A DNA stretch of 46,217 nucleotides from an uncultured Ignavibacteriota bacterium (GTDB lineage: Bacteria > Bacteroidota > Ignavibacteria > UBA10030 > UBA8401). The DNA lies in the NCBI GenBank assembly GCA_903884005.1, contig CAISDA010000004.1:1-46217 (forward strand), in the 5' to 3' direction. The notes beneath the pieces were generated by a model. It did not search any database and was not told the DNA's origin. It worked only from the letters and a program-made list of their open reading frames with translations. Position 1 is the first letter of the stretch. The number at the start of each line of letters is the position of its first letter. The translations under genes were made by a program, and so were the position numbers. Of this stretch, positions 1 through 16,400 are shown in pieces.

Positions 1-1
1 A

Positions 2-30
2 ATTATAACAATGCTTGAGGAGAATGTCAA
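2..30 (-). promoter_or_regulatory. Perfect sigma-70-type promoter reading out of the left edge
   Basis: On the minus strand the -35 box TTGACA (positions 30-25) and the -10 box TATAAT (7-2) are both exact and lie exactly 17 bp apart. A TG dinucleotide one base upstream of the -10 box adds an extended -10 element. Transcription would start just outside the window and run leftwards, so the gene it serves is not visible. A similar exact promoter drives the tetR operon at 26.4 kb, so this architecture appears to be native to the genome. Confidence 0.7.
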
Positions 31-88
31 GTAAATAATCATGAGAACATCAATTATCGCCTGTAAAATCGAGGGTGTGACGACCTTT

Positions 89-505
89 TTAACTGGGTAG
101 ATGATCCCTTGTTATAAAATCACGGGATTTAAGGTTATAATTAAAGTCCGACGTAAACAATTGAATTCTTGATGACGCAAAATCTGCCACCGCAATAATA
201 TTATTCCATGTGGTCACGGGACCTGAGCCTCGGAATTCTGCATTCCCCCTTCCCTTTTTCCCTATTTCATGCAATAATTTGCCTTTCCAGTTAAATTCTT
301 CAAGTTTATATGCAAGCTTGTCAGACATAATAATCGTACCGTTATGCGTTGGCGCGATTCCATAAATTCCGAGAAATAAATCGGAGTTCCCACAACCCAA
401 TAATTCAAGTTGCCTAATGTTTGATTTCTGTTTATGGAGATTTTGTCCGTATGCCGAGAGATGACAAATTATTGATATTGCCACTAAAGTCATAATTTTG
501 TTCAT
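89..505 (-). CDS. Truncated secreted NHL/6-bladed beta-propeller protein
   Basis: This 138-residue protein has an N-terminal signal peptide (hydrophobic core followed by SAYGQ). It then shows about two propeller blades: a GIYGIAPTHNGTIIMSD strand set, the blade-closing KGRGNAEF motif (compare the GxGPGEF motif of NHL/6-bladed propellers), and an ADFASSRIQLF strand. Family members normally have six blades and well over 300 residues, so this one is severely shortened. Translation past the TAA soon meets another in-frame stop, which suggests truncation or decay rather than one simple frameshift. It follows the cysteine-rich peptide gene on the same strand, 63 bp downstream, separated by a hairpin. 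The ribosome-binding site is weak. In Bacteroides, small peptide genes often sit next to such propellers; the shared function is unknown. The fold call is fairly safe; that the product is functional is not. Confidence 0.55.
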   Translation of the reverse strand: MNKIMTLVAISIICHLSAYGQNLHKQKSNIRQLELLGCGNSDLFLGIYGIAPTHNGTIIMSDKLAYKLEEFNWKGKLLHEIGKKGRGNAEFRGSGPVTTWNNIIAVADFASSRIQLFTSDFNYNLKSRDFITRDHLPS

Positions 506-529
506 GTTCTTTATTTTTGATTAAATATT

Positions 530-557
530 GAGGGGTAAGGGAAAACCCCCACCCCTC
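530..557 (-). terminator. Hairpin between peptide and propeller genes (attenuator or terminator)
   Basis: GAGGGGT at 530-536 pairs perfectly with ACCCCTC at 551-557. An inner GGG/CCC pairing closes an AAAA loop. On the minus strand the hairpin is followed by an A/T-rich stretch without a strict U run. It lies just after the peptide stop codon and before the propeller start, so it may terminate most transcripts after the peptide or protect its 3' end. Confidence 0.45.
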
Positions 558-568
558 ATAAACATTTA

Positions 569-760
569 TCATGCACCACAATTGAACCAGCCAATCCAAC
601 AACCTGCTTGACATCCTTCACCCCACAATGGGATAGAACCACATTGAGCATTGCAATGTTCAAGCGCTGTATTGCAATATTCTGGTGCCGCGTTTGCGGT
701 CAGGGATAAAAGGAACGTTAATATTAACATTGCAAGGAACGAAGTTATGATTTTTTTCAT
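569..760 (-). CDS. Small secreted peptide with mirror-symmetric cysteines (twin CX3C)
   Basis: The product has 63 residues. A classical signal peptide (MKKII, hydrophobic core, then TANA-A) leaves a mature peptide of about 39 residues with six cysteines. Their spacing is C-x6-C-x3-C-x9-C-x3-C-x6-C, an exact mirror image about the central loop. Twin CX3C motifs joined by a turn are known from helical-hairpin folds (small Tim proteins, plant alpha-hairpinins), where they form two parallel disulfides, so an alpha-hairpin with three stacked disulfides can be proposed. A good ribosome-binding site (GGAG, 7 bp before ATG) supports this start. It lies directly upstream of the truncated propeller gene. 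No close family is recognised. Possible roles include a secreted toxin or bacteriocin, a signal, or a structural peptide; these are speculation. Confidence 0.6.
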   Translation of the reverse strand: MKKIITSFLAMLILTFLLSLTANAAPEYCNTALEHCNAQCGSIPLWGEGCQAGCWIGWFNCGA

Positions 761-1480
761 TTTCTTTCTCCATGGTTAGTTGTTTGGTTGATTTAGGAGA
801 TTGCTGCGTCCCATTCCTCGATTTGATTTCGGTAATCTCTTGCAGGACGATGCAATGTCATACCTTATATTCAAATCAAAAAATCAGTAATCTCATATTT
901 TAATGCGACTGTGATTCATATTTTTGAAGAACGCAATCCTTACTGACAACAATATTATTAATAAACTTCACTTGATGAAGGGCATCGCTCTCGTCATTCT
1001 CCATTCTTTTGCAATACCCAAATGGGTGTCATTGTAAAAATGGCCCATCGTGAAAACATCTCACAGACTGCTTCTGCTCCTCCATTGCTTCTATCACAAT
1101 ATTTCTTTCATTCTGGTAATTATATTCTTTAATGAAAGCATTATAAATATATTTATTATTACATACAACATTAATTTATACTGTTATACCTTTATTCCCT
1201 ATATACAACCCCAGCCTCACTCCTATGGGATATAGGTATTCATTTCTGCCCTATTCGAAGATTTTCACTGTCACAAAATGACATTTTACTATCGAACTCC
1301 CTGTTTTTCGGTCAAATTTCCCGATTTCACACCCAATTACAGTCTCGGGCGTACCTAGAATAATCCATGATTCGCCATGTTGAGCCGGGATGTCAAAAGA
1401 GTAGCTTTGCTAGGCCCCAGACAAAAATAACTCCCCGGATAGCGCATGGGAGTTATTGCTTGGAACAAGCCATAAAAAAT
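761..1480. other. AT-rich stretch without a convincing gene
   Basis: No open frame here has a credible start, ribosome-binding site and coding-like composition together. A plus-strand frame at 1050-1235 encodes only an AT-driven hydrophobic string and is not believed. On the minus strand one frame from 1409 to 1029 is broken by only two stops (1251-1253 and 1176-1178) and reads protein-like in its first 50 codons. It may be the remains of a decayed gene. A small ACCC/GGGT hairpin lies near 1017-1028. The region lies between the peptide gene and the phage-type cassette, in the most AT-rich part of the window. Confidence 0.5.
1426..1457 (-). terminator. Rho-independent terminator of the phage-type cassette
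   Basis: A perfect 10-bp inverted repeat, AATAACTCCC (1426-1435) with GGGAGTTATT (1448-1457), encloses a 12-nt loop. On the minus strand the stem runs straight into TTATTTTTGTCT, a U-rich tail. It lies 24 bp past the stop codon of the last cassette gene. Confidence 0.75.
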
Positions 1481-1891
1481 TTATATTTTATAAATCTCCA
1501 TTCCAGCGGTCAGGTATTCGTGCAGTGGCATCTTCTCTTCCATCTGTGCATCGAGATGATTAATCACTTTCACATCACTTAACAGTTCCTCAAGTGGCCT
1601 TACTTCACCCTCCGTAATATACTGTCTACTCCCATACATCACGGCTGCAACATAGTCAAGTTGTTCTTGTGAAAGATCTGCTAAATAATTTTTCGGAATA
1701 TTCTCGAGGCATTTATTTTTCTTCCTGCAATAATTTTTATCATACACGATGCGTCTCACTGTCTCCGGCGACAATCCATACGGGCCATCCGAGATCATAT
1801 CCAAAGCGTCGCTCACTGTCGTGCCGTCGTTACGGATGCGGCTGAATAGCGTCCTGATTTCCTCATTTCGTTTCTCTCGTCGCTCGGTCAT
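1481..1891 (-). CDS. Phage-type small HTH-like protein, function unknown
   Basis: This protein has 136 residues from ATG 1891 (MTERREK), the first start that avoids a long overlap with the upstream gene. Residues 1-60 are charged and contain a segment ending GLSPETVRRIVYDK that reads like a helix-turn-helix recognition helix, followed by a basic CRKKNKC patch. The acidic C-terminal part (ELLSDVKVINHLDAQMEEKM) looks helical. No family is recognised. It is the last gene of a tightly packed minus-strand set (5 bp after the VRR-NUC gene) ending at a strong terminator, as in early regions of phages or integrative elements. A DNA-binding or recombination accessory role is a guess from context. Confidence 0.5.
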   Translation of the reverse strand: MTERREKRNEEIRTLFSRIRNDGTTVSDALDMISDGPYGLSPETVRRIVYDKNYCRKKNKCLENIPKNYLADLSQEQLDYVAAVMYGSRQYITEGEVRPLEELLSDVKVINHLDAQMEEKMPLHEYLTAGMEIYKI

Positions 1892-1896
1892 TCTCC

Positions 1897-2250
1897 CTAC
1901 GCCTTTCTCCGTATTCCATGATTGATCCACCCGCGGCCCTCGGCGATTGCAATAAACTCATCGATGGATTTTACCACAAAGTATCTTCCAGCCGCTTCCT
2001 GCACCCGGTGTTGATGAATCTTTTGCTCAACACTCTGGCGTTCCGAGCCGATCTTAATTTCAAACTCCAAATACTCGCCATCGATACAGGCCACGACATC
2101 GCCGGTGCCGATCGCCGAGCGGTCCGAGCTTCGTCTGTAACGTTTCGTTTTCAGATCGTAGATGCCGACAGTATTATTTCTCCAGGCTATTCCCAACCCG
2201 GAATTAATTGTCGTTATGATCGCCTGTGTGAGCGCCGATGCCTGAGCCAT
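1897..2250 (-). CDS. VRR-NUC domain nuclease (phage type)
   Basis: This 117-residue protein is essentially a stand-alone VRR-NUC domain of the PD-(D/E)xK nuclease superfamily. The catalytic signature is visible: Asp in SAIGTGDVVACI, the E-x-K pair in EYLEFEIKIG, and the conserved Gln/His helix SVEQKIHQHRVQEAAG, followed by the typical YFVVKSIDEF strand. Such small VRR-NUC proteins are common in phage replication modules, where structure-specific (Holliday-junction-like) DNA cleavage has been proposed or shown for relatives. ATG 2250 is preferred over an upstream TTG because AAGGA lies 6 bp before it. It follows the helicase-loader-like gene with 2 bp between genes. The domain is recognised with good confidence; the substrate is inferred. 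Confidence 0.8.
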   Translation of the reverse strand: MAQASALTQAIITTINSGLGIAWRNNTVGIYDLKTKRYRRSSDRSAIGTGDVVACIDGEYLEFEIKIGSERQSVEQKIHQHRVQEAAGRYFVVKSIDEFIAIAEGRGWINHGIRRKA

Positions 2251-2252
2251 TT

Positions 2253-2738
2253 TCAATCCTTCAGGAATGATGGATATTTGGTTTCTTGTTGCGGTTGTTC
2301 GTTAATCCAAATGACTCCGTTCGACGCCCGCCTGCAGTCCCTGAGGTATTCAGCTGCGAAACTTTTATTGCACGCATTGTATGTTTTACCCGGGCAGTCA
2401 AATGTTTTGAAGCTCTGCATGTCCTCCTGGCGCAGGACAAATGAACGTCCGCACGTGCATTCGACAGGCGTGAGTGCGGGCGGACGATTCGGATCTTGAT
2501 CTCGCGCCGATTCAAACAATCCCTTCGATGCTGCCAACTCACAGAGTTTTTTTCGTGACGGGAAATTGTCACAGGCATCCTTCGCGGCTTCACAGAGATC
2601 AACCCACTGCTCGAACGATAGGCGCTCGAAGCGCTTGAGAAAATCCTTTCCCATCGCGGTCATGCCTGAGCTCGTGACGTCCTTCCCGAAGGCTCCACAG
2701 AGTTCCTTGAAGACTGGCGCAAATTCATTTGAGTCCAT
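2253..2738 (-). CDS. Phage replication protein, helicase-loader-like with Cys cluster
   Basis: The product has 161 residues from ATG 2738, which has a strong AGGAGGA ribosome-binding site 8 bp upstream. Longer readings would overrun the preceding gene. The N-terminal ~75 residues are helical (FAPVFKELCGAFGKDV, then LSFEQWVDLCEAAKDACDNFPSRKKL), a pattern like the G39P/helicase-loader family in which one helix precedes a conserved 'FP' segment. The C-terminal half has CTCG, CPG and CNK cysteines that could form a zinc ribbon. It overlaps the upstream DnaD-like tail by 14 bp and is followed at once by the VRR-NUC gene. Position between an initiator-like tail and a nuclease is classical for phage replication cassettes. 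The loader assignment is inferred from pattern and context only. Confidence 0.5.
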   Translation of the reverse strand: MDSNEFAPVFKELCGAFGKDVTSSGMTAMGKDFLKRFERLSFEQWVDLCEAAKDACDNFPSRKKLCELAASKGLFESARDQDPNRPPALTPVECTCGRSFVLRQEDMQSFKTFDCPGKTYNACNKSFAAEYLRDCRRASNGVIWINEQPQQETKYPSFLKD

Positions 2739-2904
2739 TGACAAAATCCTCCTCCCATGATTTTTCTTTCCGCGCCTGATTGTCCGCGCGCTTGGTTTTA
2801 TCGACGATTGCTTCCACGCATGCATAATTCATCTTGCCATATTTCGCGGCCTCGTCGATCGCACGGTATACTTCGCTCCAGCCAAATTCCCTGCCAAGGG
2901 TCAA
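2725..2904 (-). pseudogene. C-terminal remnant of a DnaD-like phage replication initiator
   Basis: On the minus strand the last ~55 codons before TGA 2725 read REFGWSEVYRAIDEAAKYGKMN, then VEAIVDKTKR and a charged tail. This resembles the DnaD/phage replication-protein C-terminal domain (a G-x-x-x-V-x-x-AI-x-x-A helix, then an I-x-x-I-x-x-K helix). Upstream of about 2893-2905 the same frame runs antisense through a histidine kinase fragment and stops making sense, so the N-terminal part has been lost at a recombination junction. It overlaps the next gene by 14 bp. The boundary is uncertain by about 20 bp. Confidence 0.5.
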
Positions 2905-2914
2905 GAGCCGGGAC

Positions 2915-3190
2915 GAACTGGTCCAGTATGGCGATCTGACAAACATAGCCTTGACCGAAGGCGAGTATGCGCTCCTGAGTGTGACGGATAACGGCTCTGG
3001 TATGAGCACGGACGTGCGCAACAAGATCTTCGATCCCTTCTTCACGACAAAATTCACGGGATGCGGATTAGGCCTGTCGGCGGTGCTGGGAATCATACGC
3101 AGCCACGAAGGTGGGCTTTCAATTGAAAGTGCCGAAGGAATCGGCACGACGTTTCGGGTATTATTTTCGCTGCTGCCCTCTCCCCTTTAA
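2915..3190 (+). pseudogene. C-terminal fragment of a histidine kinase (HATPase domain end)
   Basis: About 91 codons encode only the end of a GHKL ATPase domain: the G1 box SVTDNGSGM, the F box IFDPFFTTKF, the G2 box CGLGLSAVLGI, and a final SAEGIGTTFRVLF strand, then TAA at 3188. The N box, the H box and all sensory domains are missing. No start codon with a ribosome-binding site exists; the frame fades into the antisense phage-type gene near 2.91 kb. The F and G2 boxes resemble those of the hybrid kinase at 29.3 kb, so both belong to the same broad kinase class. It is a 5'-truncated remnant cut by the left-hand element. Confidence 0.75.
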
Positions 3191-3271: not shown

Positions 3272-3385
3272 TATTGACAATCGATGGAAACCTCGTGCGA
3301 CTCCCCGGCGTGCTTTCCGGCCATCGTCAGATTGATACAGTGCAGACAACACGCACAGCAGAGACAAACAGAAAAGGGTACCTCA

Positions 3386-4651
3386 ATGCAGCTTTCCGGC
3401 TTACGCTACGGCGCAAAATTAATGCAATTGGTAGAATTTCCGGTGGCCGAATTCCTGACCGGCTCGGCAACGAATGACGAACTTCAGTTGATGCTGGATA
3501 AATATAAAAAGTTGGTAGTCAAACCGATCTTTAACGGAGGCGTGGGGAAAAAAGGCAAGGCCGGACTGATCAAGATCGTGGACAATGTGATCGACGCGCT
3601 GGAGGCGAAGCGGGAATTGTATTTTGCCGAGCACAAGTACGGCAACAAGCTCATCCGCGCGAACGGTGTCACATTCGAGGCCTTCATACCGTCCGAACTC
3701 GAAGTGTATTTCAGCATCACGTCATCCTCCGAAAAACGGGAACCGATTTTTACCATCACCCCATTCGGCGGCGTGGACATTGAATCGCTGCCTGCCGAGA
3801 AAAAGATCACGGTCCCCATTGAGCCGTTCATCGGATTGAAATCGTTCTCCATCACGAACTCGTTATGCGATCTGGGGTGTCCAGAAGAGTTCATCTCCCC
3901 GCTCGTACAGAATCTTCCGAAGCTCTGGACACTCTTCAACGATTATGGATTGACGACATTGGAACTCAATCCGATACGCATGTTCAAAGACTCGCGAGGG
4001 AGGATCATACCGATCGCGTGCGACATCAAGGCGGGCTTCGACCAGGACAATCCGGCGTGGAAGAGGATCGGGCTCCCCCCGACCATTTTCCAATCGGACA
4101 TCTCGCAATTCGAGTCGGAGATCAACCAATTGCGCACATACCAGGGGCAGTCGGACGTGCTCGAATTGAATCCGCACGGCACGATCATTCCCTTCATGTT
4201 CGGCGGAGGCGCGAACTCCGCCGCAACAGAAACGCTCGGCAGCAAGGCGATCTTCTCGTCGGATTTCGGCGGCAATCCGCCGTATGAAAAGATGTATGAG
4301 ATCAGCCGGATCGTGTTCAAATACTGGTACAACGAGGCGAACGTCCTCTTGATCATCGGCGGCAAGGCCAACAACACGGATATCTACGTCACGTTCAAGG
4401 GCATCTTCGACGCATTGCGCGATCACGTAGCGGCACACGGAAAAAAACCGATCTACACGGTCATCGGGCGAGGCGGTCCCAATCTGATCAAGGGATTGTT
4501 CTACGGGAAAGACATACTCGACACGCTGAAGCTCCCCTACCGGGTCTTCGGCTACGACACGTCGATCATCTCCACGATTGAATACGCGAAGAAAATCGAA
4601 CAATGGTGGGCGGACACAGGGAAGGAAGAATTCATCAAAAAAATCGGTTGA
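3386..4651 (+). CDS. aclB: ATP-citrate lyase, ATP-grasp (small) subunit
   Basis: The product has 421 residues and corresponds to the N-terminal third of eukaryotic ATP-citrate lyase and to bacterial AclB. Residues 1-235 are an ATP-grasp succinyl-CoA-synthetase-type domain: KLVVKP near 43-48, GGVD near 128, and the metal/phosphate segment LELNP at 192-196. Residues ~255-421 form the ligase-type domain with IIPFMFGGGANS and IIGGKAN, matching the GGGAS and IIGGS motifs of the human enzyme. With the large subunit it would make citryl-CoA from citrate, ATP and CoA and split it to acetyl-CoA and oxaloacetate. ATG 3386 is chosen because AAGGG lies about 8 bp upstream and the LRYGAKLMQLVEFPV segment aligns with the AclB N-terminus. 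The large-subunit gene follows after 66 bp. Sequence is divergent from green sulfur bacterial AclB. Confidence 0.88.
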   Translation: MQLSGLRYGAKLMQLVEFPVAEFLTGSATNDELQLMLDKYKKLVVKPIFNGGVGKKGKAGLIKIVDNVIDALEAKRELYFAEHKYGNKLIRANGVTFEAFIPSELEVYFSITSSSEKREPIFTITPFGGVDIESLPAEKKITVPIEPFIGLKSFSITNSLCDLGCPEEFISPLVQNLPKLWTLFNDYGLTTLELNPIRMFKDSRGRIIPIACDIKAGFDQDNPAWKRIGLPPTIFQSDISQFESEINQLRTYQGQSDVLELNPHGTIIPFMFGGGANSAATETLGSKAIFSSDFGGNPPYEKMYEISRIVFKYWYNEANVLLIIGGKANNTDIYVTFKGIFDALRDHVAAHGKKPIYTVIGRGGPNLIKGLFYGKDILDTLKLPYRVFGYDTSIISTIEYAKKIEQWWADTGKEEFIKKIG

Positions 4652-4717
4652 TGATGTTTCCCACAGTGCTCATCAGTGAACCTACTCCACCACCTATTTA
4701 TTTCGGACTCAAACCAT

Positions 4718-7444
4718 ATGCGACCCATTAAAACCAAACCATTCGATTATTTCGTCGGCGTTCAGTCTCTCGAGGAATTAGTCAATAAAGACTCCCGCGT
4801 GTGCATCGTGAACATCCTCGGAAGCGAATCGAGGAAAGTCACCCCCGTCTCGCACGAATACAGCGGCGGCAACATCGTAGCCGGCGTGCAGTACGGGAAA
4901 CACGGCGCGCTGGAGACGAAGCTCGGGGATATTCCCGTCTATCAAAGCGTGCGCGATGTGATGCACGAGGGGCATGCCTTTGACATGGGCGTCATTTATT
5001 TGCCGCCCTCGGCGGTGAGCCAGGCCGTATCCGAAATGATACAGCTTAACGAGCACTTGAAGAGGATCGTCATCGTCACCGAAAAAGTGTCGCTGAAAGA
5101 CTCGCGCAACGTCCGCTACATCTGCCAGGAGGCAGGCGTGGATGTGATCGGAGCGAACTGTCTCGGCGTCGCAAACATCTGGGATCACGTCCGGGTCGGC
5201 GGGGCGTTAGGGGGCGACAATCCGGAAGAGAGCCTGGTCAGAGGGTCGGTGGCGATCCATTCGAACTCGGGGAACTTCACCACGACGATCGCCGAATATC
5301 TGAAGACGAAAGGATTCGGCATCACCACCGCGGTCTCATCGGGTAAGGACGTGATCATCCATTTTGCATTGCCTGAGTTCCTGTTTGCGGCGCAGAACGA
5401 TTCGCGGACGAAGGCCATCGTGCTCTACGTTGAGCCGGGCGGGTATTACGAGCGCATGGCGCTTGAAATGATCAAGGACAGAAAATTCGGCTTCAACAAA
5501 CCGATCGTCGTGTGCGTCACCGGCCGCTGGAAGAAGGACATCACCCGGGCTGTCGGCCATGCCGGGGCGTTGTCGGGCAGCGGCGACGACGCCTTGAGCA
5601 AGGAAAAATGGTTCGACGAGTATTTCGGGGTCGATGCGTTCGATACGAAACATCCGGTCGTCTCGAAGCGCGGCGTGAGGGTTGCATCGATACAAAACAT
5701 ACCTGAGGCAATGAAATACGTCTACCAGAAGATCGACGAAGCCCCCGATTTTGAGGCGCACGGCGACCTCTCGCTGAAGCCATGGCTGGGCGACAAGCTC
5801 ATACAGGTGCCGGTGGAATTGGACATACCGATCGTGCGGGCGATGCCGCCGTACGACAAGCAGATACAGGAGACCAACAAGCAGGTCGGGGCGCACCATT
5901 TGCGCCAGAGCATGCGCAACAAGAGCGGCGCATCGAAGATGCATCCAAGCACGCAGGTGTCGGAACTGCACGGGAAATCGGTCCTGGACCTGTCGCAGCA
6001 CACGATGGAAGAGAACATCTACTTCGCCCTCGGCAAAGTGATGCCGGAGCCGGCGGACATTCCGACGATCAATTTGATCCTGAATTTATTTCTGAAGATG
6101 GACGAATCGCGCATGGAGTGGGTGGACATCGGCCGCAATAACGGCGCCTCCCCCAACGCGTACATCGGATCGCAGATCGCGCTCATCGGGAACAAAACGC
6201 TCCTGGCTAAGACAAAAACGCAGGTGCAGGCGATCATCAACCTCATCCGGGAATTCGGGATCGACGAGCGGACGGCTCATTTTCCGCAGGAAATGGACGA
6301 GTATATACTAGCCACCATGCTCACGAAAGAGCCGCAGATCAAGAGCGACGTGAGCGACATGCTGATGAAGGAGATCAAGAAGAGCAAAAAAGTGTGCATC
6401 GCCGTGCAGGTCTGCCAGCATATCATCGCATTGGCAGAAGCCTCGCAGCTCGAGGTCAAGGACACGTACGAATTTCTGCTGGGGTCCATAGCGACATGCA
6501 TTTTCTGGACGCCGATGCTCGAGAAACGGATCACCAGGGAGACCGTCGAAGATTCGATGACGTATTTTTATACCATCTCGAGAATCGTTGCCTATTCGGT
6601 TATCGACAGGCCGAACAATAAATTTTGGAAGAAGCTGATCGATGCCAGGATCTCGAATATCAATGCGTCGTTCACCGAGAATGCATTCAAGATACTCTTC
6701 AACAGACAGCCGACCGAGGCCGATCTTTATGAATTCAAGACGCTCATCGGATTGACGATCACCAACGGTCCCGGCACAATCTCGGCAAAGGGTGCGAAGG
6801 AATCGGTGTCGGCGCGCAATCACATCTCGATGGCGTTTGTCGGATTCATGTCGAACACCGGATTCGCGCACGGCGGCAACGGCTTCGAAGCGGTGAAATT
6901 CCTGCTGGACAATTTTGCGGGAACCGATCTGAAGGATCCGGGCGAGAAGCAGCATGGGATCGACCTCGACGCCATCGCGCTCCGGGTGGTCAAGCAGTAT
7001 GCACAGTACAAACAGGAAGCCAAAGAACTGGGAAATCTGGATTACGCAAAGATCCCCTGCGTGAACCATCCGGTGTTCAAAGGCAACGATATCAACATCG
7101 ACCCGCGCGAAAAATTCGTCAGGAGCGAATTCGAAAAAAAAGGCATCTACAACATTTACCTCGATTTTTATCACAAGCTGGTGCAGCGCTTATTTGACGA
7201 AGGAGTGACGAAGAACGTGTTCTGCGTGAATATCGACGCCGTGCTTGCGGTCATCTCGCTGAAGCTTGTGTGGAAAGAAATTCAGGGCCATACATTCACC
7301 GACAAGCAGGTGCAGGACCTGGTCTTCACGATGTTCATCTTCGGCAGGGCGATCGGCACGGCGGCGGAAATAGCGGATCACCGGGATCGGGGCACGGACA
7401 TGGATTGCCGGACACCGCAGAAAGAGCTGCGCTTCGTATTGTAA
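4718..7444 (+). CDS. aclA: ATP-citrate lyase large subunit, enlarged form
   Basis: The product has 908 residues from ATG 4718; an upstream GTG (4676) has no ribosome-binding site. Residues ~15-335 are the CoA-binding/CoA-ligase part: VCIVNILG, ANCLGV, SNSGN, and the phospho-histidine loop GHAGA with His281. Residues ~680-908 are the citrate-synthase-type lyase: ITNGPG, ARNHISMAF, NHPVFKG (His784) and VNIDA (Asp840), matching the His and Asp motifs GIGHRV and LNVDG of human ACLY. Usual AclA proteins have about 600 residues. Here the link between the two parts (~340-680) is about 260 residues longer, helical and unassigned. Together with the upstream ATP-grasp subunit it forms the complete enzyme for citrate cleavage (reductive TCA direction, or cytosolic acetyl-CoA supply). 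The genes face the Re-citrate-synthase-like gene across a shared hairpin. Identity is secure; the extra region is the odd part. Confidence 0.88.
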   Translation: MRPIKTKPFDYFVGVQSLEELVNKDSRVCIVNILGSESRKVTPVSHEYSGGNIVAGVQYGKHGALETKLGDIPVYQSVRDVMHEGHAFDMGVIYLPPSAVSQAVSEMIQLNEHLKRIVIVTEKVSLKDSRNVRYICQEAGVDVIGANCLGVANIWDHVRVGGALGGDNPEESLVRGSVAIHSNSGNFTTTIAEYLKTKGFGITTAVSSGKDVIIHFALPEFLFAAQNDSRTKAIVLYVEPGGYYERMALEMIKDRKFGFNKPIVVCVTGRWKKDITRAVGHAGALSGSGDDALSKEKWFDEYFGVDAFDTKHPVVSKRGVRVASIQNIPEAMKYVYQKIDEAPDFEAHGDLSLKPWLGDKLIQVPVELDIPIVRAMPPYDKQIQETNKQVGAHHLRQSMRNKSGASKMHPSTQVSELHGKSVLDLSQHTMEENIYFALGKVMPEPADIPTINLILNLFLKMDESRMEWVDIGRNNGASPNAYIGSQIALIGNKTLLAKTKTQVQAIINLIREFGIDERTAHFPQEMDEYILATMLTKEPQIKSDVSDMLMKEIKKSKKVCIAVQVCQHIIALAEASQLEVKDTYEFLLGSIATCIFWTPMLEKRITRETVEDSMTYFYTISRIVAYSVIDRPNNKFWKKLIDARISNINASFTENAFKILFNRQPTEADLYEFKTLIGLTITNGPGTISAKGAKESVSARNHISMAFVGFMSNTGFAHGGNGFEAVKFLLDNFAGTDLKDPGEKQHGIDLDAIALRVVKQYAQYKQEAKELGNLDYAKIPCVNHPVFKGNDINIDPREKFVRSEFEKKGIYNIYLDFYHKLVQRLFDEGVTKNVFCVNIDAVLAVISLKLVWKEIQGHTFTDKQVQDLVFTMFIFGRAIGTAAEIADHRDRGTDMDCRTPQKELRFVL

Positions 7445-9162: not shown

Positions 9163-11157
9163 TCACTCTTTCCGGTTGGTGAGTATGATGGATGAATACT
9201 GCTGATAACGCTGCTCAAGTTCTTTTTCTTCATTGACAAGTTTTTGAACAACACTGTTCGTTTCGCTGCTGCCGCGCACAGACAAAAAATCACGTTCCCG
9301 CTCCTCTTCGTTACGGTCGATGCCGTAGCCGATCTTCGCGAACGCGGCGAATTCCCGTTTTGCGTCTTCCAGGATCATGGCATGGAGGGACGAGGCGGAC
9401 CGTTTCCACTCCTCGACGGCGGCAAGCGCCTTCTCGTGCGTCAGGGCGGCTGGCTCGATACCATATTCTTTCCTGAATACGTCGCACACGTAGCGCCATT
9501 CGTCGGCGCGATAGGCGTCGTACATAGCGCCCAACTCACGGTTTACGTCATCGATGGACTCACAGGCATTCGATGTAATCATTGCTTCCAGCGCAGCGAG
9601 ACGTTCGCGGGGCGTCAGCAATCCGCAGAGGTCCGTCCATTCATCCGGGTGCTGCAGCAGTCCGTCGGACGAGAGAGACGCCGTCGCCACAGCCCAATCG
9701 CTGGAATGAGCCAGCGCATTCATGAGACGCTCGCTCACTTTCTCGTTGAGATACCTGGCGATCGCCATGGAATAATATTTTGCGCCTTTGCGCAGAAGCA
9801 GTCGATTGATCTGCAGGCCGCCGTAGGTGACAAACGGTTTTTCTTTCGGTGTGGATTCGGCCAACGCCAGAAGTTCATCCCTGCCCCGCCTCATTTTTTC
9901 GACCGTATAGGGTGAAAAGACATCGAAGCACAGAAGGTCCCGCTTCACAGGCGCCTTTCGATTATCCCTCTTGGGCCATTTTTCGCCGTCACGGACCGTG
10001 CCGACGGAAAACAGCGTCATACCCGGTATGAGTTTCGAGGCCCCTTCGTCCTCGTGGATGTACGAGAAGGGAAGGTTCGGCGTGTTGATGTTCGAGTAGT
10101 GTTTCCCGATCACAACGCTGAACGCGCCGATGCGGCTTTCAAGCAGCACGTACGAGAACGAGCCGGTCTTACACCCGCGTTCAAAGACGCCCTGATGCAC
10201 CGGGCCGAGCTTATACATGTGGTTGCTCTGGTTGCTGCCGCTTCCCGCGTTAAAGAAGGAAAAGAGGCCGGCAATAAGCAGCGTGGATTTGTGGTGTGTG
10301 ACGGTGTACGGGCCGGCGAACAGGGAAACCGCTTCGCCATGATATGCTTCGCAGTTGGCGAAGAAGAGGGAATTCTCGGCCGAAAACTGCTTCCCCATTT
10401 TAACGGCCTGGCCGCAATAGACCTTGTCCAGGATAGCGCCGCTCTCGATCTTCGCCCCTTCGGCGATGATGAACGACCGCGCCTGCACACCCTCGCCGAT
10501 CTCTGTCGGATGTTCGGCGCAGCTCAGGATGGATCCGTTCTCGAGATACTGGGTGCCGTGGAGGAAGGCATACGGGCCCACGTCAACATTCCTGATCACG
10601 CCGCAATGAACGATCCGGGCATGGCTGCCGATGCGCGCGCCGCGCGCCGTGGCGCGAAGTGCGGCAAGGATGAGCGACGAGAGCCTGCGCGTGCATTCGG
10701 GATTGTGCCGCATGAGCGCCTGCATGTACGCCGTATGTGCCGAGAGTTCATTGAAGATGACCGTGCCGCGCCCGCCCGCTTCGTTGACGACATCGAGTTC
10801 GACGCCGTTGCCGCACGCCGGATCGATGTCGGCAATGAGTGCCGCCGTGTTCTCGATGGCGACATTGTCGCCGACGACGTATCGAGCAACGACCGATCCG
10901 ACATTTGCGATGCGGACATGATCGCCGATAGTGCAATCCGTGATCGCCGCGTGATAGATCCCGCAGTCGAATTCCATTCCGTCGACACGTATAACGCCGG
11001 TGTTGTCACCGATCTCGACGGTGCCGGAGAACGCCGCATTTCGGATACGCGAGAGGATGCACTGCGGCGACAGCGTGACCGTCTGCCAATCGCTCGCCGA
11101 ACATCCCTGCTGCTCAAGGACCGTTATCTGTGATTGATCGAGATGAAGAGAGTCCAT
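9163..11157 (-). CDS. DUF4954-type left-handed beta-helix protein
   Basis: The product has 664 residues without signal peptide. Residues ~30-300 are hexapeptide-rich (IGDNTGVIRVDG, IGDHVRIANVG, VGDNVAIENTA, IGSHARIVHCG, IGEGVQARSFI), the hallmark of left-handed parallel beta-helices as in LpxA, GlmU and other acyl- or nucleotidyltransferases. The middle contains GPYTVTHHKSTLLIAG, NAGSGSNQSNHMYKLGPVHQG and LLESRIGAFSVVIG. The C-terminal ~230 residues are helical. Length and block order fit DUF4954 of Bacteroidota, whose function is not known. It starts a three-gene operon with ACP and a Re-citrate-synthase-like enzyme. Because beta-helix transferases often use acyl-ACP, a role in moving an acyl group is a reasonable but untested inference. 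Confidence 0.75.
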   Translation of the reverse strand: MDSLHLDQSQITVLEQQGCSASDWQTVTLSPQCILSRIRNAAFSGTVEIGDNTGVIRVDGMEFDCGIYHAAITDCTIGDHVRIANVGSVVARYVVGDNVAIENTAALIADIDPACGNGVELDVVNEAGGRGTVIFNELSAHTAYMQALMRHNPECTRRLSSLILAALRATARGARIGSHARIVHCGVIRNVDVGPYAFLHGTQYLENGSILSCAEHPTEIGEGVQARSFIIAEGAKIESGAILDKVYCGQAVKMGKQFSAENSLFFANCEAYHGEAVSLFAGPYTVTHHKSTLLIAGLFSFFNAGSGSNQSNHMYKLGPVHQGVFERGCKTGSFSYVLLESRIGAFSVVIGKHYSNINTPNLPFSYIHEDEGASKLIPGMTLFSVGTVRDGEKWPKRDNRKAPVKRDLLCFDVFSPYTVEKMRRGRDELLALAESTPKEKPFVTYGGLQINRLLLRKGAKYYSMAIARYLNEKVSERLMNALAHSSDWAVATASLSSDGLLQHPDEWTDLCGLLTPRERLAALEAMITSNACESIDDVNRELGAMYDAYRADEWRYVCDVFRKEYGIEPAALTHEKALAAVEEWKRSASSLHAMILEDAKREFAAFAKIGYGIDRNEEERERDFLSVRGSSETNSVVQKLVNEEKELEQRYQQYSSIILTNRKE

Positions 11158-11319
11158 AGCCCATTTCCGCTGTCGTGGCCGATTCCGTGATAGTTGATAG
11201 TAGAGATAATTTTAAAGAAGTGCAATGCCATTGCGATGATGTGAATAATTTAGGTAATTGTAGCTGTCACACCACAGTGCTCTGCATTCGGCCACAGACC
11301 ATCAGGTACATACTATTTT

Positions 11320-11751
11320 ATGAGCGACGAGATCGTCATTACGAAGCGCATCATCATCCCACCGAGTGAGATCACCTTCAGGTATTCCAGGAGCAGCGGA
11401 CCGGGCGGGCAAAACGTGAACAAACTTTCGACGAAAGCGGAACTTCTCTTCGATCTGGAGCACTCGAGTGCGATAGACGAGGCGACAAAAGCGAGGCTGA
11501 GGGAAAAACTCGCGAACACGATCGACAACGCCGGAACGATCAGCGTCATGTCTCAGGAATCGCGCAGTCAGTATCAGAACAGGCAGATCGCGATCGAAAA
11601 ATTCATCCTGCTTCTGAAAAAAGCGCTCATCGTTGCCAAGCCCCGCAAGAACACGAAGCCCACGCGAACGTCCACGAAAAAACGCCTGGACACCAAGACC
11701 AAACACGGGAATATTAAACGAACGAGGATCAAGAAGATCGAGATGGAGTAA
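11320..11751 (+). CDS. arfB: Alternative ribosome-rescue factor ArfB (peptidyl-tRNA hydrolase)
   Basis: This 143-residue protein has the codon-independent release-factor fold. The catalytic GGQ motif lies in SSGPGGQNVNKLSTKAEL near residue 28, preceded by the usual I-x-x-x-E-I-x-x-x-x-x-R-S strand. The C-terminal 35 residues are the Lys/Arg-rich tail (KKRLDTKTKHGNIKRTRIKK) that enters the empty mRNA channel. ArfB hydrolyses peptidyl-tRNA on stalled ribosomes. It is a single-gene unit transcribed away from the DUF4954 operon and convergent with the porin gene, 30 bp away. Length and motifs are normal for the family. Confidence 0.93.
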   Translation: MSDEIVITKRIIIPPSEITFRYSRSSGPGGQNVNKLSTKAELLFDLEHSSAIDEATKARLREKLANTIDNAGTISVMSQESRSQYQNRQIAIEKFILLLKKALIVAKPRKNTKPTRTSTKKRLDTKTKHGNIKRTRIKKIEME

Positions 11752-11781
11752 ACAGAAGGCATTTGCAACACACCGTGTCGA

Positions 11782-12942
11782 TTAAAAATGGATTCCGAAC
11801 CTGAGGATGCCGGCCACCGCGTTCGGCAAGGGGGCGCCAGTACCCGCGGGATGAACAATATATTGGATATCGGGCTGGAGCGTGATATGTTCGGTGATAG
11901 GAGTTTGGTATGTCACTTCGAACGCGGATTCGTGATCGGTGCTTTGGAGGCAGGCATGCGCGAATGCCAGGCCGAGCACATCCGAACCATCCTCTTTGAG
12001 CAGGCCATAGTAATTCACTCCGGCTCCGAAGAACAAAAAATTATCGTTGAACTCTTTTGTGCTCACACTTCCCCGTGCAAAGACGACCGTGTTTCCCGCC
12101 GCATACGGTTTTCCGGCTACCGACTGATCGATCGTACCATAGACTCCATAATTATTCGTATAGACCGATTCGGTGATTTGTGTTTCCGGATTGAACACCG
12201 AGAGATGATCGTGATTATAGGCGCCGATCTTATAGACGCCGTGGCGATCGTTGTCATCGCCCACCGACAGCTGCGCTTCGGCCACGGCAAGCACTCCGTC
12301 GTCGTCGGTGTAGCGCCACTTGAAATTATAGGGGTTATCCTTGAATTCGATCGAATTGCCGTCGTAGACGCAGGCAAGGAGCGACCAACGATCAGACACG
12401 TTCCACATTACGGTCACGCCCGTCGATGTCAGTGGAAAAATCGGCGCAGGCACGTTGTTGGCGATAGTGGAATGCACACCGAACGAGCTGTTGAGATAGA
12501 CGCCGGAGTATTCATTCGACGCAAATTTGGCGTTCATGTCCTGAAGGCCGACGGTGATGGACACTTGTCCGATGACCTGCCGATACCAGAGTTCCTGTGC
12601 ATAGGTATGATTGCCCGCCTCAAGATTGGACAGGATCTGGAAATCGCCGATGAGGTCGGCCGATGGGAGGGCTCCATGCGTATTGGCCGCCTTCAAAAAT
12701 ATTGTCCCATCGCGCCAAAGCCCGCCGGCCTTTGTGTCGAAGGTAACGTTGATATATGCCATTCCAAGGTACGCGGTTCCCGTTGCAATGCCGCCCCTGA
12801 AGTTGCCGACGGCGTCTCCGGTGTAGGATGCCTGGAAGGAAAGCGGATGAGGGATCTGCGCGGAATCAGGCTGCGAATACGCCATGCCCCACATGCCGAA
12901 CATGAAAAGCAACAGTTGTCTGCCGAGCGTATGTGCATGCAT
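11782..12942 (-). CDS. OprB-family carbohydrate-selective porin
   Basis: The product has 386 residues with a signal peptide (LLLFMFGMWGMAYSQ). The mature part alternates short beta strands and ends in a phenylalanine (RFGIHF), as outer-membrane barrels do. Blocks such as ELWYRQ, GLQDMNAKFASNEYSGVYLNSSFG and PIFPLTSTGVTVMW match the OprB porin family, which lets monosaccharides and related solutes across the outer membrane. It is a single gene, convergent with arfB. The long upstream gap (12943-13145) shows no clear promoter. The family call is solid; the substrate cannot be read from sequence. Confidence 0.82.
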   Translation of the reverse strand: MHAHTLGRQLLLFMFGMWGMAYSQPDSAQIPHPLSFQASYTGDAVGNFRGGIATGTAYLGMAYINVTFDTKAGGLWRDGTIFLKAANTHGALPSADLIGDFQILSNLEAGNHTYAQELWYRQVIGQVSITVGLQDMNAKFASNEYSGVYLNSSFGVHSTIANNVPAPIFPLTSTGVTVMWNVSDRWSLLACVYDGNSIEFKDNPYNFKWRYTDDDGVLAVAEAQLSVGDDNDRHGVYKIGAYNHDHLSVFNPETQITESVYTNNYGVYGTIDQSVAGKPYAAGNTVVFARGSVSTKEFNDNFLFFGAGVNYYGLLKEDGSDVLGLAFAHACLQSTDHESAFEVTYQTPITEHITLQPDIQYIVHPAGTGAPLPNAVAGILRFGIHF

Positions 12943-13145
12943 ACAGCGTATTCTATTATTGATATGAGCGTTCCTCGTTCCGGCTGCAGGTGCGCTTCGC
13001 GCGCAAGCCGCAGACTGCTTTTATTATCGGCAGCTAATCCAAATAACTTTAGCGATAGTGCAAAATTATCAACTCATCAGAAGGGAGCAGGGCGTTTCGA
13101 GGAGGCGTTCAATAATGAAAGTACCGGCGGGAAGCACAGTACGTA

Positions 13146-13373
13146 TCAGTCGCCGATATCGATTCCGGCAGTGTAGAGGTCCTCGACTTTTTTTCGCGCC
13201 CACGGCGTTGTACGGAGGAATTTAAGGCTCGATGAGATGCTGGGATTCTCATTGAAGCATTTAATATTGATGAAGCGTCCGAGGTCCTTCCACCCGTATT
13301 TTTTAACGAGGTGCGTGAGTATCATCTCGAGCGTGACGCCGTGGAGCGGATTATTCGGCTGATCTGGTGCCAT
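13146..13373 (-). CDS. VF530 family (DUF2132) small DNA-binding-type protein
   Basis: This 75-residue protein matches the VF530/DUF2132 family over its whole length: [33 protein letters not shown], and [20 protein letters not shown]. The Vibrio member has a winged or helical DNA-binding fold by structure; the biological role is unknown. ATG 13373 is preferred over an upstream TTG because the conserved region starts close behind it. It is the gene after the RND pump on the same strand, but a GC-rich hairpin separates them, so it probably has its own transcript. Confidence 0.85.
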
Positions 13374-13413
13374 GTTTTTTCTACCCAAATAAATAATTCA
13401 CAGGGATGTGCCG

Positions 13414-13433
13414 GCCGCGGCCGAAGCCGCGGC
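13414..13433 (-). terminator. GC hairpin after the first RND pump
   Basis: GCCGCGGC (13414-13421) and GCCGCGGC (13426-13433) pair as an 8-bp stem with a CGAA tetraloop. On the minus strand an AT-rich stretch (GAATTATTTATTTGGG) follows about 13 bp later. It lies 12 bp past the RND stop codon. Confidence 0.5.
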
Positions 13434-13445
13434 AGATCGCCCCGG

Positions 13446-16400
13446 TTATTCGTGTGAGGCCGGTTGGGGATCGACTTTATGTTCTTTTGAAAAGAACGTA
13501 TACATCGCCGGAATGACGAAGAGCGTCAGGATCAGCGAAAAGAATAATCCTCCGATGACAACGATGCCCATGGACACACGGCTCTTTGCGCTTCCGCCGA
13601 GCGCGAGTGCAATGGGAAGGGCTCCGAGTATCGTGGCGAGCGTCGTCATCAGGATCGGCCGGAAACGGGCCGCGGCAGCAAACTGTGCGGCCTCGAAAAG
13701 TTTCATGCCCTTCTCTTTTTTCTGATTTGCAAATTCGACGATCAGGATGCCGTTCTTGGTGACCAGGCCGATGAGCATGATGATGCCGATCTCGCTGAAG
13801 ATGTTGAGCGTCTTGCCCGCGATCCACAGCGAGAGGAGCGCTCCGGCCAGGGCAAGCGGAACGGTCAGCATGATCGTGAACGGATCGATGAAACTTTCGA
13901 ACTGCGCTGCAAGCACAAGGTAGATAAGAATAAGCGCGAGTATGAACGCGAAAATGATATTCGAAGAGCTCTCCGCATAATCGCGCGATGCTCCGCTGAG
14001 CGCGGTGGTGAACGAATCATCCAGCACTTTTTTTGAGATGCGGTCCATTTCCGCAAGACCGTCGCCTATCGTTTTCCCGGGAGCGAGCCCGGCGGAGATC
14101 GTAGCCGCCTTAAACCGATTGAAATGATAGAGCTGAGGCGGCGCACTCTGTTCCTTGAGTGAGACGAGATTGTCCAACTGGACCAACTGACCCGCGCTGT
14201 TCCGCACATAGAGCGACGTCAGATCCAGCGGCTCATCGCGGTTGGCCCGGTCCACCTGCCCCATGACCGAATACTGGAACCCATTCATTTCGAAGTACGA
14301 AAAACGCTGGCCGCTGAACGCCAGTTGCATCGTCTGAGCGATATCGAGCACCGAAACGCCGAGACTCCTGGCCCGGTCGCGGTCGATGAAGATGTCGATC
14401 TGCGGCTTGTTGAATTTGAGGTTCACATCCGATCCCTGCAAAACATTGCTTTTATTCACTTCGTCCAAAAATTGCGGGACCTTTTGCCGGAGCTTTTCGA
14501 AGTCCTGATTCTGCAGCACATATTGCACAGGGAACCCGCCGCGTCCGCCGGCAGAGATGGTCTGTTCCTGAAACACGAATAAGCGCGCTTCGGTCATCGG
14601 CCGTGTTTTTGCAGTGATATAATCCGCGAGTTCCTGCTGCGTACGTTTGCGTTCTGTTGGATCGGAGAGAGTGAGACGGAAAAATCCGGTATTCGTTGCC
14701 CCACCGCTGCTTCCAGAACCAATGACACCCAACGCAACCCTTTTTTCGGGGATCGAGTCGTTAAGAAATGTGGTCACCCGATTCATATACGCATCGGTGT
14801 ATTCAAAGGATGCTCCCTCGGGGGCCGTGATGGACAAACGCAGGAACCCCCGGTCGTCGAGCGGTGCAAGCTCCGATTGAATGAACATGCCGATGAGGCC
14901 GATGAGGCCGAGGGCTGCGACAATGATCGCCGGCGCCATCCAACGGTGTTTCATGAAACGCGTGAGCAGATTTTCATAGACACTATTGAGCTTCACGAAG
15001 AACGGTTCCGTGATCTCATAAAAACGGCTGTGCTTCTGTTTTTTGCGTATGAGCCGGGCGTTCAGCATCGGGGTCAGGGACAGAGAGACGAAGGCCGAAA
15101 TGAGCACGGCTCCGGCAATGACGATGCCGAATTCGCGGAAGAGACGCCCGACGAATCCCTGAAGGAAAATAATGGGAAGAAAGACCGCCGCGAGCGTGAT
15201 CGATGTTGACAGGACGACAAAGAAAATTTCCCGCGACCCCGCGAACGCAGCATCGAGCGGAGACATCCCCTCTTCAACTTTCTTGAATATGTTTTCGGTC
15301 ACCACAATGCCGTCGTCGACGACAAGACCGGTGGCAAGCACGATGGCCAGCAGCGTCAGCACATTGATCGAAAAGCCCATCAGATACATGATGAAGAACG
15401 CACCGATCAAGGACACGGGGATGTCAATGAGCGGCCGGAATGCAATGAGCCAATCGCGGAAAAAGAGAAAGATGATGAGGATCACAAGCAGCACCGCGAT
15501 GAAGATCGTTTCCTGCACTTCCTTCACCGATTGTTTAATGAATGTGGTGTTGTCTATCGCGATCTCAAGTTTGTAATCGGCGGGGAGGTCCTTCTTGATC
15601 TGCTCGTACCGCTTATAAAATGCGTCTGCGATCTCGACATAGTTGCTGCCCGGCTGCGGAATGATGCCGACTCCCACCATCGGCACTCCCGATTGTTTCA
15701 ATATCGCTTCCTCATTTTCGGGTCCCAAATTGGCAAAGCCCACATCGCTGACCCGGACGATCCGTGTTTGATCGGATTTTAAGATAAGATTGTTGAAATC
15801 GTCAACCGATTTCATGCGTCCCTTCGTATTGACGATGAGTTCAGTCTTATCCCCCGCGATCTTGCCTGCCGGCAGTTCGATGTTTTCCCTGTTCAGAGCG
15901 TTTTTGACGTCGATGGGTGTCAATCCGTACGCGGCGAGTTTTCCGGGATCCATCCAGATGCGCATCGCATAGCGCTTCTGTCCCCAGATCTGCGTTGAGC
16001 TGACGCCGGGAATTGTCTGCAGGTTTTGCGCGATGACATTTTCGGCGAAGTCGCTGAGTTCGAGCAGATTTTTTGTATCGCTCTGCACGGTCACCATGAT
16101 GATGGCATCGGAATTGGCGTCGCTTTTTGTCACCACCGGCGGCGAGTCTATATCCTGAGGGAGGGATCTGGCAGCGCCGGACACCTTGTCCCGCACGTCG
16201 TTCGCGGCAGCTTCCAGGTTCGACTCAAGATTGAATTCAACAGTGATGTTGCTGACTCCCTGGCTGCTGCTCGAGGTGATGTTTCGGACACCGTCGATGC
16301 CGTTGATCGCTTTTTCCAGCGGTTCGGTGATCTGCGACTCGATGACGGTGGCATTGGCGCCGGCATAATTTGTTCGCACGGAAATGAACGGAGGATCGAT

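Follow-up and report, generated by a model that had tools for sequence, protein, structure and literature searches.

The window, a stretch of 46,217 nucleotides from an uncultured Ignavibacteriota bacterium, carries near its left end a minus-strand gene for a small cysteine-rich peptide, followed by a stem-loop and the 5′ part of a beta-propeller gene. The features are as follows.

569..760, minus strand: coding sequence of the six-Cys hairpin peptide precursor, ATG start, 63 aa, MKKIITSFLAMLILTFLLSLTANAAPEYCNTALEHCNAQCGSIPLWGEGCQAGCWIGWFNCGA, identified from the open reading frame and its homologues
689..760, minus strand: predicted Sec-type signal peptide, residues 1–24, a hydrophobic stretch ending ANA/A (by eye)
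572..688, minus strand: predicted mature peptide, 39 aa, C-x6-C-x3-C-x9-C-x3-C-x6-C, predicted two-helix hairpin
768..771, minus strand: GGAG, a ribosome-binding-like site 7 bases ahead of the peptide ATG
522..568, minus strand: stem-loop separating the peptide and propeller genes, −27.6 kcal/mol, z −4.5 and −4.3 in two shuffle runs
89..505, minus strand: 5′ part of a truncated beta-propeller gene, a 138-aa ORF with propeller-family homology over 134–502
1..141, no strand assigned: repeat whose 100% identical copies close two other contigs of this genome, C33 and C21; the propeller gene is cut by it, and the contig ends in it

The minus-strand reading frame and its cysteine spacing, singled out in an earlier note made from the sequence alone, are confirmed; the plus strand of 569–760 is interrupted by stops. 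The intervals between the six cysteines are exactly 6, 3, 9, 3 and 6, and the loop is GSIPLWGEG, containing the Gly, Pro and Trp that the note described. A signal-peptidase-like ANA/A site closes the hydrophobic N-terminus (by eye), in agreement with the proposed signal peptide, and the N-terminus is hydrophobic in most of the aligned family members too. A search of the window's own genome found one copy of the peptide. When the 39 mature residues were shuffled, a palindromic interval list arose in 1206 of 200000 shuffles and the pattern 6-3-n-3-6 in 4 of 200000, figures that are post hoc, the real test being the homologues. The note had recognised no family, and indeed no Pfam or NCBIfam model reaches its cut-off with the window peptide: one Pfam scan returned no family up to E 10, a second gave a late-nodulin match far under the cut-off, and the sole NCBIfam match, also far under its cut-off, is to the signal region.

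Relatives were sought with a single-sequence search of 60 genomes and then with a profile in the order (98 genomes), the class (391) and other classes of the phylum (395), with deeper searches of two families (7 and 92 genomes). Besides the window, the first search gave 42 rows, of which six were kept (G039, G026, G048, G027, G046 and G032), the others being interrupted by in-frame stops or without the Cys motif. In the order, 22 of the 98 genomes matched at E ≤ 0.1; G065, G024, G081, G023, G092 and G006 were dropped, and G079 was kept as doubtful. G217, G390, G174 and G301 were dropped from the class search, and G493 and G462 from the search of other classes. The peptide of L126/L127 is identical to that of G279 and was counted once, and two genomes stand outside the count: G022, with no intact peptide, and G049, where the contig begins inside the operon. 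With motif-less matches dropped, 31 loci were accepted, all within the phylum Bacteroidota; the class and phylum searches scored no more than 15 candidates per genome, so their tallies are lower bounds. Library matches among the members are at chance level (BSMAP at E 2e-4 in 1/18, TIGR04117 at E 0.014 in 2/18).

The earlier note had staked its claim on homologues conserving the cysteine spacing, and C-x6-C-x3-C-x(8-30)-C-x3-C-x6-C is kept in 26 of the 31 loci (22/27, plus 4/4 in the later-searched families). The exact palindrome that it described stands for the mirrored flanks and not for the central value of 9, which varies from 8 to 30 across the family, or from 8 to 20 if the doubtful G079 is left out. 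Since the middle interval is free and the flanks are kept, the meaningful symmetry is that of the two flanks. The five loci that depart from the pattern are G599b, G048, G038, G151 and G385. G599b has 3-17-3 only, both outer cysteines being absent, and G078 has an extra inner cysteine on each side, giving 6-3-3-12-3-3-6 within ten cysteines; such symmetric gain and loss is what a nested pairing C1–C6, C2–C5, C3–C4 predicts. Both outer cysteines are displaced in G048 (7-3-12-3-3) and G038 (8-3-12-3-3), and in G385 a stop codon replaces Cys2. One-sided changes also occur, namely one extra loop cysteine in G039 and one displaced interval in G151 (6-3-13-4-6), and we take the variants as support for, and not proof of, the nested arrangement. 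The relative in G079 (L078 126–581, minus strand) has a long pre-sequence ending GSGGEKPGWC and a 30-residue loop, and its contig ends 125 bases past the peptide, before any neighbour.

The earlier note had also named codon constraint across related genomes as a measure of whether the peptide is real. In four close pairs dN/dS for the mature peptide is 0.08/0.62, 0.18/0.67, 0.32/0.99 and 0.40/0.78 (about 0.13 to 0.5), the last three pairs being drawn from three genomes and not independent; in these pairs the mature peptide is thus constrained by purifying selection and is not diversifying. The peptide is accessory and patchily spread: among the genomes searched, it occurs in 15 of 98 in the order (16 counting doubtful G079), in 3 of 7 in a single genus and in 6 of 92 in a single family. 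In two sister genomes a tRNA-Ser(CGA) gene lies just 5′ of the peptide operon (L138 8013–8101 and L139 4119–4209), and tRNA-Ser genes are a common site for genomic islands.

A same-strand beta-propeller gene of one family lies 3′ of the peptide gene in all 30 assessable loci (20/20, 6/6 and 4/4), which bears out the suggestion that homologues would be found beside propeller genes in other genomes. The propeller model was built from seven of the 20 first-set loci, so the 13 others and the 6 and 4 further loci are outside it. In the window's class the propeller is followed by a MauE/DoxX-type membrane protein with a C-terminal thioredoxin-like domain in 19/19 assessable loci, a count that includes partial or separate versions with a thioredoxin-like gene; the weakest matches are G032a (E 2e-7) and G385 (6e-7), and 12 of the 19 loci are outside the model, which was built from the other seven. 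The same protein was found in 0/6 loci of other classes. Two of the four fused proteins scanned pass the Pfam MauE cut-off (L064, 43.6 bits; L068, 67.6 bits), L072 is under it, and L067, for which the scanned stretch was without the N-terminus, has no match. One MauE-thioredoxin protein also matches, under cut-off, the model for HvfX, which belongs to copper-binding-RiPP maturation. The putative thioredoxin-like assignment rests on a CxxC motif invariant in seven aligned rows, a sub-threshold ResA match (E 0.059) and one fold model of moderate confidence, in which the soluble C-terminal domain of the L124 protein resembles ResA-type folds (Foldseek E 1.3e-4 at probability 1.00; the model's mean pLDDT is 64, rising to about 80 within the thioredoxin-like domain). 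Pfam thioredoxin models gave no match in the six oxidoreductase-type proteins scanned.

Of the 15 loci in the window's class that could be assessed, 11 go on with an ABC ATPase and permease, and 7 have a second membrane protein farther on, a set resembling the ATPase and two membrane proteins of lantibiotic immunity. The pair was not found in G039, G087, G089 and G090, the last two having an ATPase farther off without a permease. In the other classes an ATPase follows the propeller in 6/6 loci, with a permease match in four and a similar-sized ORF in the other two. Thus the common core of every assessable locus is the peptide and the propeller. The one ABC ATPase scanned against NCBIfam matches the lantibiotic-protection model TIGR03740 at 1e-49, third behind drrA and GldA, and the last membrane protein resembles the YknW model in two of three scanned (E 0.0065 and 0.082); all of these are under cut-offs. 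Among eight proteins scanned with defence-system models the ABC ATPase alone matched (21 models, best mad3 at 1.2e-25), and we read these matches as generic ATPase similarity. In and around the complete operons of L124 and L125, ten proteins include no glycosyltransferase and no C39 peptidase (Pfam). The MauE-thioredoxin protein, the ABC transporter and the stem-loop were absent from the earlier account, which taken as a whole is partly supported.

Several loci have further features of note. G032 has tandem peptide operons (L069 7021–12341), the first peptide having stops in its signal region. Just beyond the L124 operon, on the opposite strand, is a Disulph_isomer (PF06491) gene encoding a thiol-redox protein (12681–13118, minus strand). 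In L117 (region 9468–14264) a different Cys-rich 84-aa ORF with a hydrophobic N-terminus (14010–14264, minus strand) lies directly 5′ of a DUF5128 propeller, with an ORF matched by the MauE-thioredoxin profile and an ABC-ATPase-like ORF (by eye) nearby, and is possibly a second peptide type with the same kind of operon. L119 (1256–5063, minus strand) has a 154-aa Cys-containing ORF with no Pfam match beside a MauE-profile-matched protein, and further ORFs that by eye resemble propeller and thioredoxin.

The stem-loop recurs in the family. In the 75 bases past the peptide stop z is −3 or lower in 12 of 26 loci; past the propeller this is so in 1 of 26, and among random windows from these loci in 7 of 312. 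A repeat of the test with different shuffles put 13 of 27 rows at that level, one of them a duplicate species. No stem-loop is evident (z > −2) in another 12 of the 26, and in G088 and G090, which belong to one genus, the propeller frame overlaps the peptide end and leaves no gap for a hairpin. A stem-loop following the first gene often lifts the first product above the rest of an operon. Upstream of the peptide, the four loci scanned for regulators have HTH_18/AraC-type genes in G078, G501 and G463 (under cut-off) and a LuxR-type gene in G026. In G022 there is by eye only a remnant-like stretch at the peptide's place, whereas every later part, from the propeller and oxidoreductase through the ATPase and permease to the last membrane protein, is present, a pattern like that of orphan immunity genes.

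The window's own copy of the operon is probably disrupted. Propeller homology runs from 502 to 134 only, and since bases 1–141 are repeated at the very ends of C33 and C21, the contig stops in a repeat that interrupts the propeller. Searches of the window genome found no MauE-thioredoxin at E ≤ 1e-6 and no propeller C-terminus elsewhere. The peptide copy may be a remnant; conceivably the remainder of the operon was left unassembled. Three minus-strand ORFs 5′ of the peptide (1481–1930, 1897–2256 and 2253–2825) have no Pfam match and are phage-like by eye, and a plus-strand frame at 2834–3190 has the ATPase part only of a histidine kinase (Pfam), such that 1481–3190 looks like a mobile or degraded patch. 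Beyond it, at 3284–7444, are two genes with the Pfam domains Citrate_bind and ATP-grasp_2, and Succ_CoA_lig and CoA_binding, those of an ATP-citrate lyase with two subunits, which suggests a reductive TCA-cycle capacity.

The earlier note had proposed a helical hairpin, and this is what AlphaFold2 predicts when given the mature window peptide and three relatives: helices at mature residues 3–16 and 23–36, with mean pLDDT 87 and pTM 0.58, one of the five models reaching only 56. Foldseek against the PDB gave three matches to the model, the first being nigellin-1.1 (2NB2; E 3.1, TM 0.63/0.65), which is non-significant. VIA-align, run against five chains only, gave Z 5.8 for vicilin-buried peptide-8 (6O3Q), 4.8 for nigellin and 4.0 for a phage activator entry, and a PDB sequence profile matched weakly to Tk-hefu-11 (E 0.2), Tk-hefu being an alpha-hairpinin-based scaffold. 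The nearest solved structures to the predicted fold thus appear to be plant alpha-hairpin peptides, and for a short helical model this is suggestive only.

Alpha-hairpin peptides have two antiparallel helices, twin CX3C motifs and Cys1–Cys4 and Cys2–Cys3 bonds (PMC7191063). The inner four cysteines and predicted helices of the window peptide likewise have the CX3C-Xn-CX3C arrangement of the plant alpha-hairpinins. These have two disulfides, whereas the window family is bacterial, has an extra outer cysteine pair at x6 and its own operon, and no match between the two is significant (Foldseek E 3.1, VIA Z 4.8–5.8). Twin CX3C motifs are also a property of the small Tim chaperones, but the window peptide has a signal peptide and an outer cysteine pair, and we rejected membership on finding no zf-Tim10 match (to E 10 for the window peptide, and none listed for 18 members). 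The NVEALA peptides are Cys-containing Bacteroidota peptides found near propellers; the NVEALA model PF14055 gave none above cut-off and one weak match in 118 genomes of the phylum. Glycocins have outer cysteine pairs with C-x6-C spacing. Members such as sublancin, glycocin F and thermoglycocin have two nested disulfides and thioredoxin-like genes in the cluster (PMC12457901). They are likewise bacterial peptides, and the window-family spacing would be compatible with nested disulfides; the family differs in its Sec-type signal and additional inner cysteine pair, and the glycosyltransferase and protease-transporter of glycocins were found neither among the ten L124 and L125 proteins (Pfam) nor by eye in other loci.

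The operon can be compared with known systems as well. Lantibiotic producers protect themselves with a LanI lipoprotein and a LanFEG ABC transporter, and their immunity sets consist of an ATPase plus two membrane proteins. YknWXYZ is an efflux pump for SDP (PMC4887032). The peptide operon resembles both kinds of protection in having an ATPase and membrane proteins next to a peptide gene, with the beta-propeller occupying the place of LanI, and its lantibiotic and YknW model matches are all under cut-offs. The mau cluster, which encodes a propeller subunit, a small Cys-rich subunit and the maturation proteins MauE and a thioredoxin-like protein, is alike in those parts; an ABC transporter, usual in the peptide operon, is a difference. 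The methylamine dehydrogenase light chain is much larger than the window-family peptide, and we do not place the peptide with it: its Pfam family gave no match, and the aligned peptides keep no Trp that could answer to its conserved Trp pair. The decRiPPter candidate RiPP clusters of Streptomyces pair MauE homologues with predicted precursors that have 8 or more cysteines (PMC7794033). Those candidates are from another phylum and have more cysteines, and the excerpted text mentions no propeller (PMC7794033); by analogy, the pairing fits with maturation of a peptide product here. No description of the peptide family or its operon is among the open-access literature matches listed, and we regard the family as new but its structural theme as known, the hairpin being described in plants (PMC7191063) and, with other chemistry, in glycocins (PMC12457901).

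The family, its spacing, fold prediction, operon order and stem-loop enrichment are direct results of computation, and the function that we favour for them, with a confidence that falls a little short of even, is that of an oxidatively folded, secreted antagonistic peptide with self-protection by the propeller and the ABC transporter. The peptide would be exported through Sec from a small accessory operon present in several Bacteroidota classes, and would form two antiparallel helices held by three nested disulfides, a pairing suggested by the cysteine pattern. Through the stem-loop past its stop codon it would be made in larger amounts than the other operon products. Oxidation would take place beyond the inner membrane, and in the window's class would presumably be the work of the operon's MauE-type membrane protein with its thioredoxin-like domain. 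It may then act on other cells as a bacteriocin-like antagonist, the producer being protected if the dedicated beta-propeller binds the peptide and the ABC transporter clears it. We favour antagonism because of the accessory distribution and the stem-loop, because the operon brings its own thiol chemistry and a neighbouring transporter, and because the downstream genes stand as orphans in G022. The layout is bacteriocin-like, with a peptide gene, linked transporter and immunity-like genes and a patchy spread, though the ABC pair was not found in 4/15 assessable loci.

Several observations count against antagonism. The mature peptides are not cationic, with a crude net charge of −3 to +1 computed from sequence at 21 loci, unlike many antimicrobial peptides; the close pairs are under purifying and not diversifying selection; the ABC pair was not found in 4/15 loci, nor the MauE-thioredoxin protein in 6/6 loci of other classes; and the stem-loop is not seen in 12/26. 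No outer-membrane exporter was recognised adjoining the peptide loci (by eye), so the peptide could remain periplasmic. In the window an intact peptide ORF lies beside a broken propeller, which fits poorly with an active toxin if the gene is expressed.

The chief rival, which we consider unlikely, is a periplasmic complex of two subunits resembling methylamine dehydrogenase, in which the peptide would be the propeller's light subunit, with a structural or redox role, and the ABC transporter and thioredoxin would serve assembly of an enzyme or electron carrier. Methylamine dehydrogenase pairs a Cys-rich light chain with a propeller heavy chain and needs MauE and MauD. That peptide and propeller are the only parts in every assessable locus is consistent with such a complex, as are the two of four MauE-thioredoxin proteins above the Pfam MauE cut-off, the lack of a recognised exporter (by eye), the purifying selection and the speculation that MauE forms disulfides in the beta subunit of methylamine dehydrogenase (PMC7794033). 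However, a stem-loop between the two genes (12/26) predicts unequal amounts of their products, no Trp is conserved across the family alignment, the distribution is patchy, and G022 keeps the propeller beside a seemingly decayed peptide.

A secreted signal or pheromone is somewhat less probable again; here the propeller would be a receptor or processing partner, the ABC transporter would export or import the peptide, and AraC- or LuxR-type genes would respond. Such genes do lie 5′ of the peptide in the loci given above (HTH_18/AraC-type in G078, G501 and, under cut-off, G463; LuxR-type in G026) and the mature peptide is under purifying selection, but no single regulator type is common to the four loci scanned and no sensor kinase was recognised in the operon (by eye). 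We doubt more strongly that the peptide handles metals or thiols, its CX3C pairs binding copper or shuttling thiols like small periplasmic chaperones, a reading in which the ABC pair would be comparable to NosFY. The twin CX3C cores and the HvfX-model match, under cut-off, in one MauE-thioredoxin protein agree with it, and a paper on copper-chelating bufferins mentions DoxX 10 times (PMC12452194). Yet no MNIO or metal enzyme was recognised in the operons (by eye), the hairpin-compatible spacing is better suited to structural disulfides, and one member has only four cysteines. That the gene is a chance ORF or functionless relic is scarcely credible: the window copy does lie at a contig end with a broken propeller, but the family has conserved spacing, an operon and purifying selection, and for the family a chance ORF is contradicted by that conservation.

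Going one step beyond the antagonistic function favoured above, and correspondingly more tentative, is the possibility that these peptides form an undescribed antagonistic class of Bacteroidota. They would be alpha-hairpinin-like, exported through Sec and closed by three nested disulfides (two or four in some members); in one class a dedicated MauE-thioredoxin protein would mature them, and in the producer a peptide-specific propeller immunity protein and an ABC pump would neutralise them. If so, a beta-propeller would serve as bacteriocin immunity, and the architecture of plant defence hairpins would have arisen independently in bacteria. The peptide, propeller, MauE-thioredoxin protein and ABC transporter make up a defined and searchable module in poorly studied bacteria, and the peptide is a compact Cys-rich scaffold with a loop of 8 to 30 residues. 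Should the peptides be antagonistic, self-protection proteins would include a new kind, the beta-propeller, and a new peptide weapon would be added to the repertoire of these bacteria; should they not be, the pairing of peptide and propeller still gives a partner to an unannotated propeller family.
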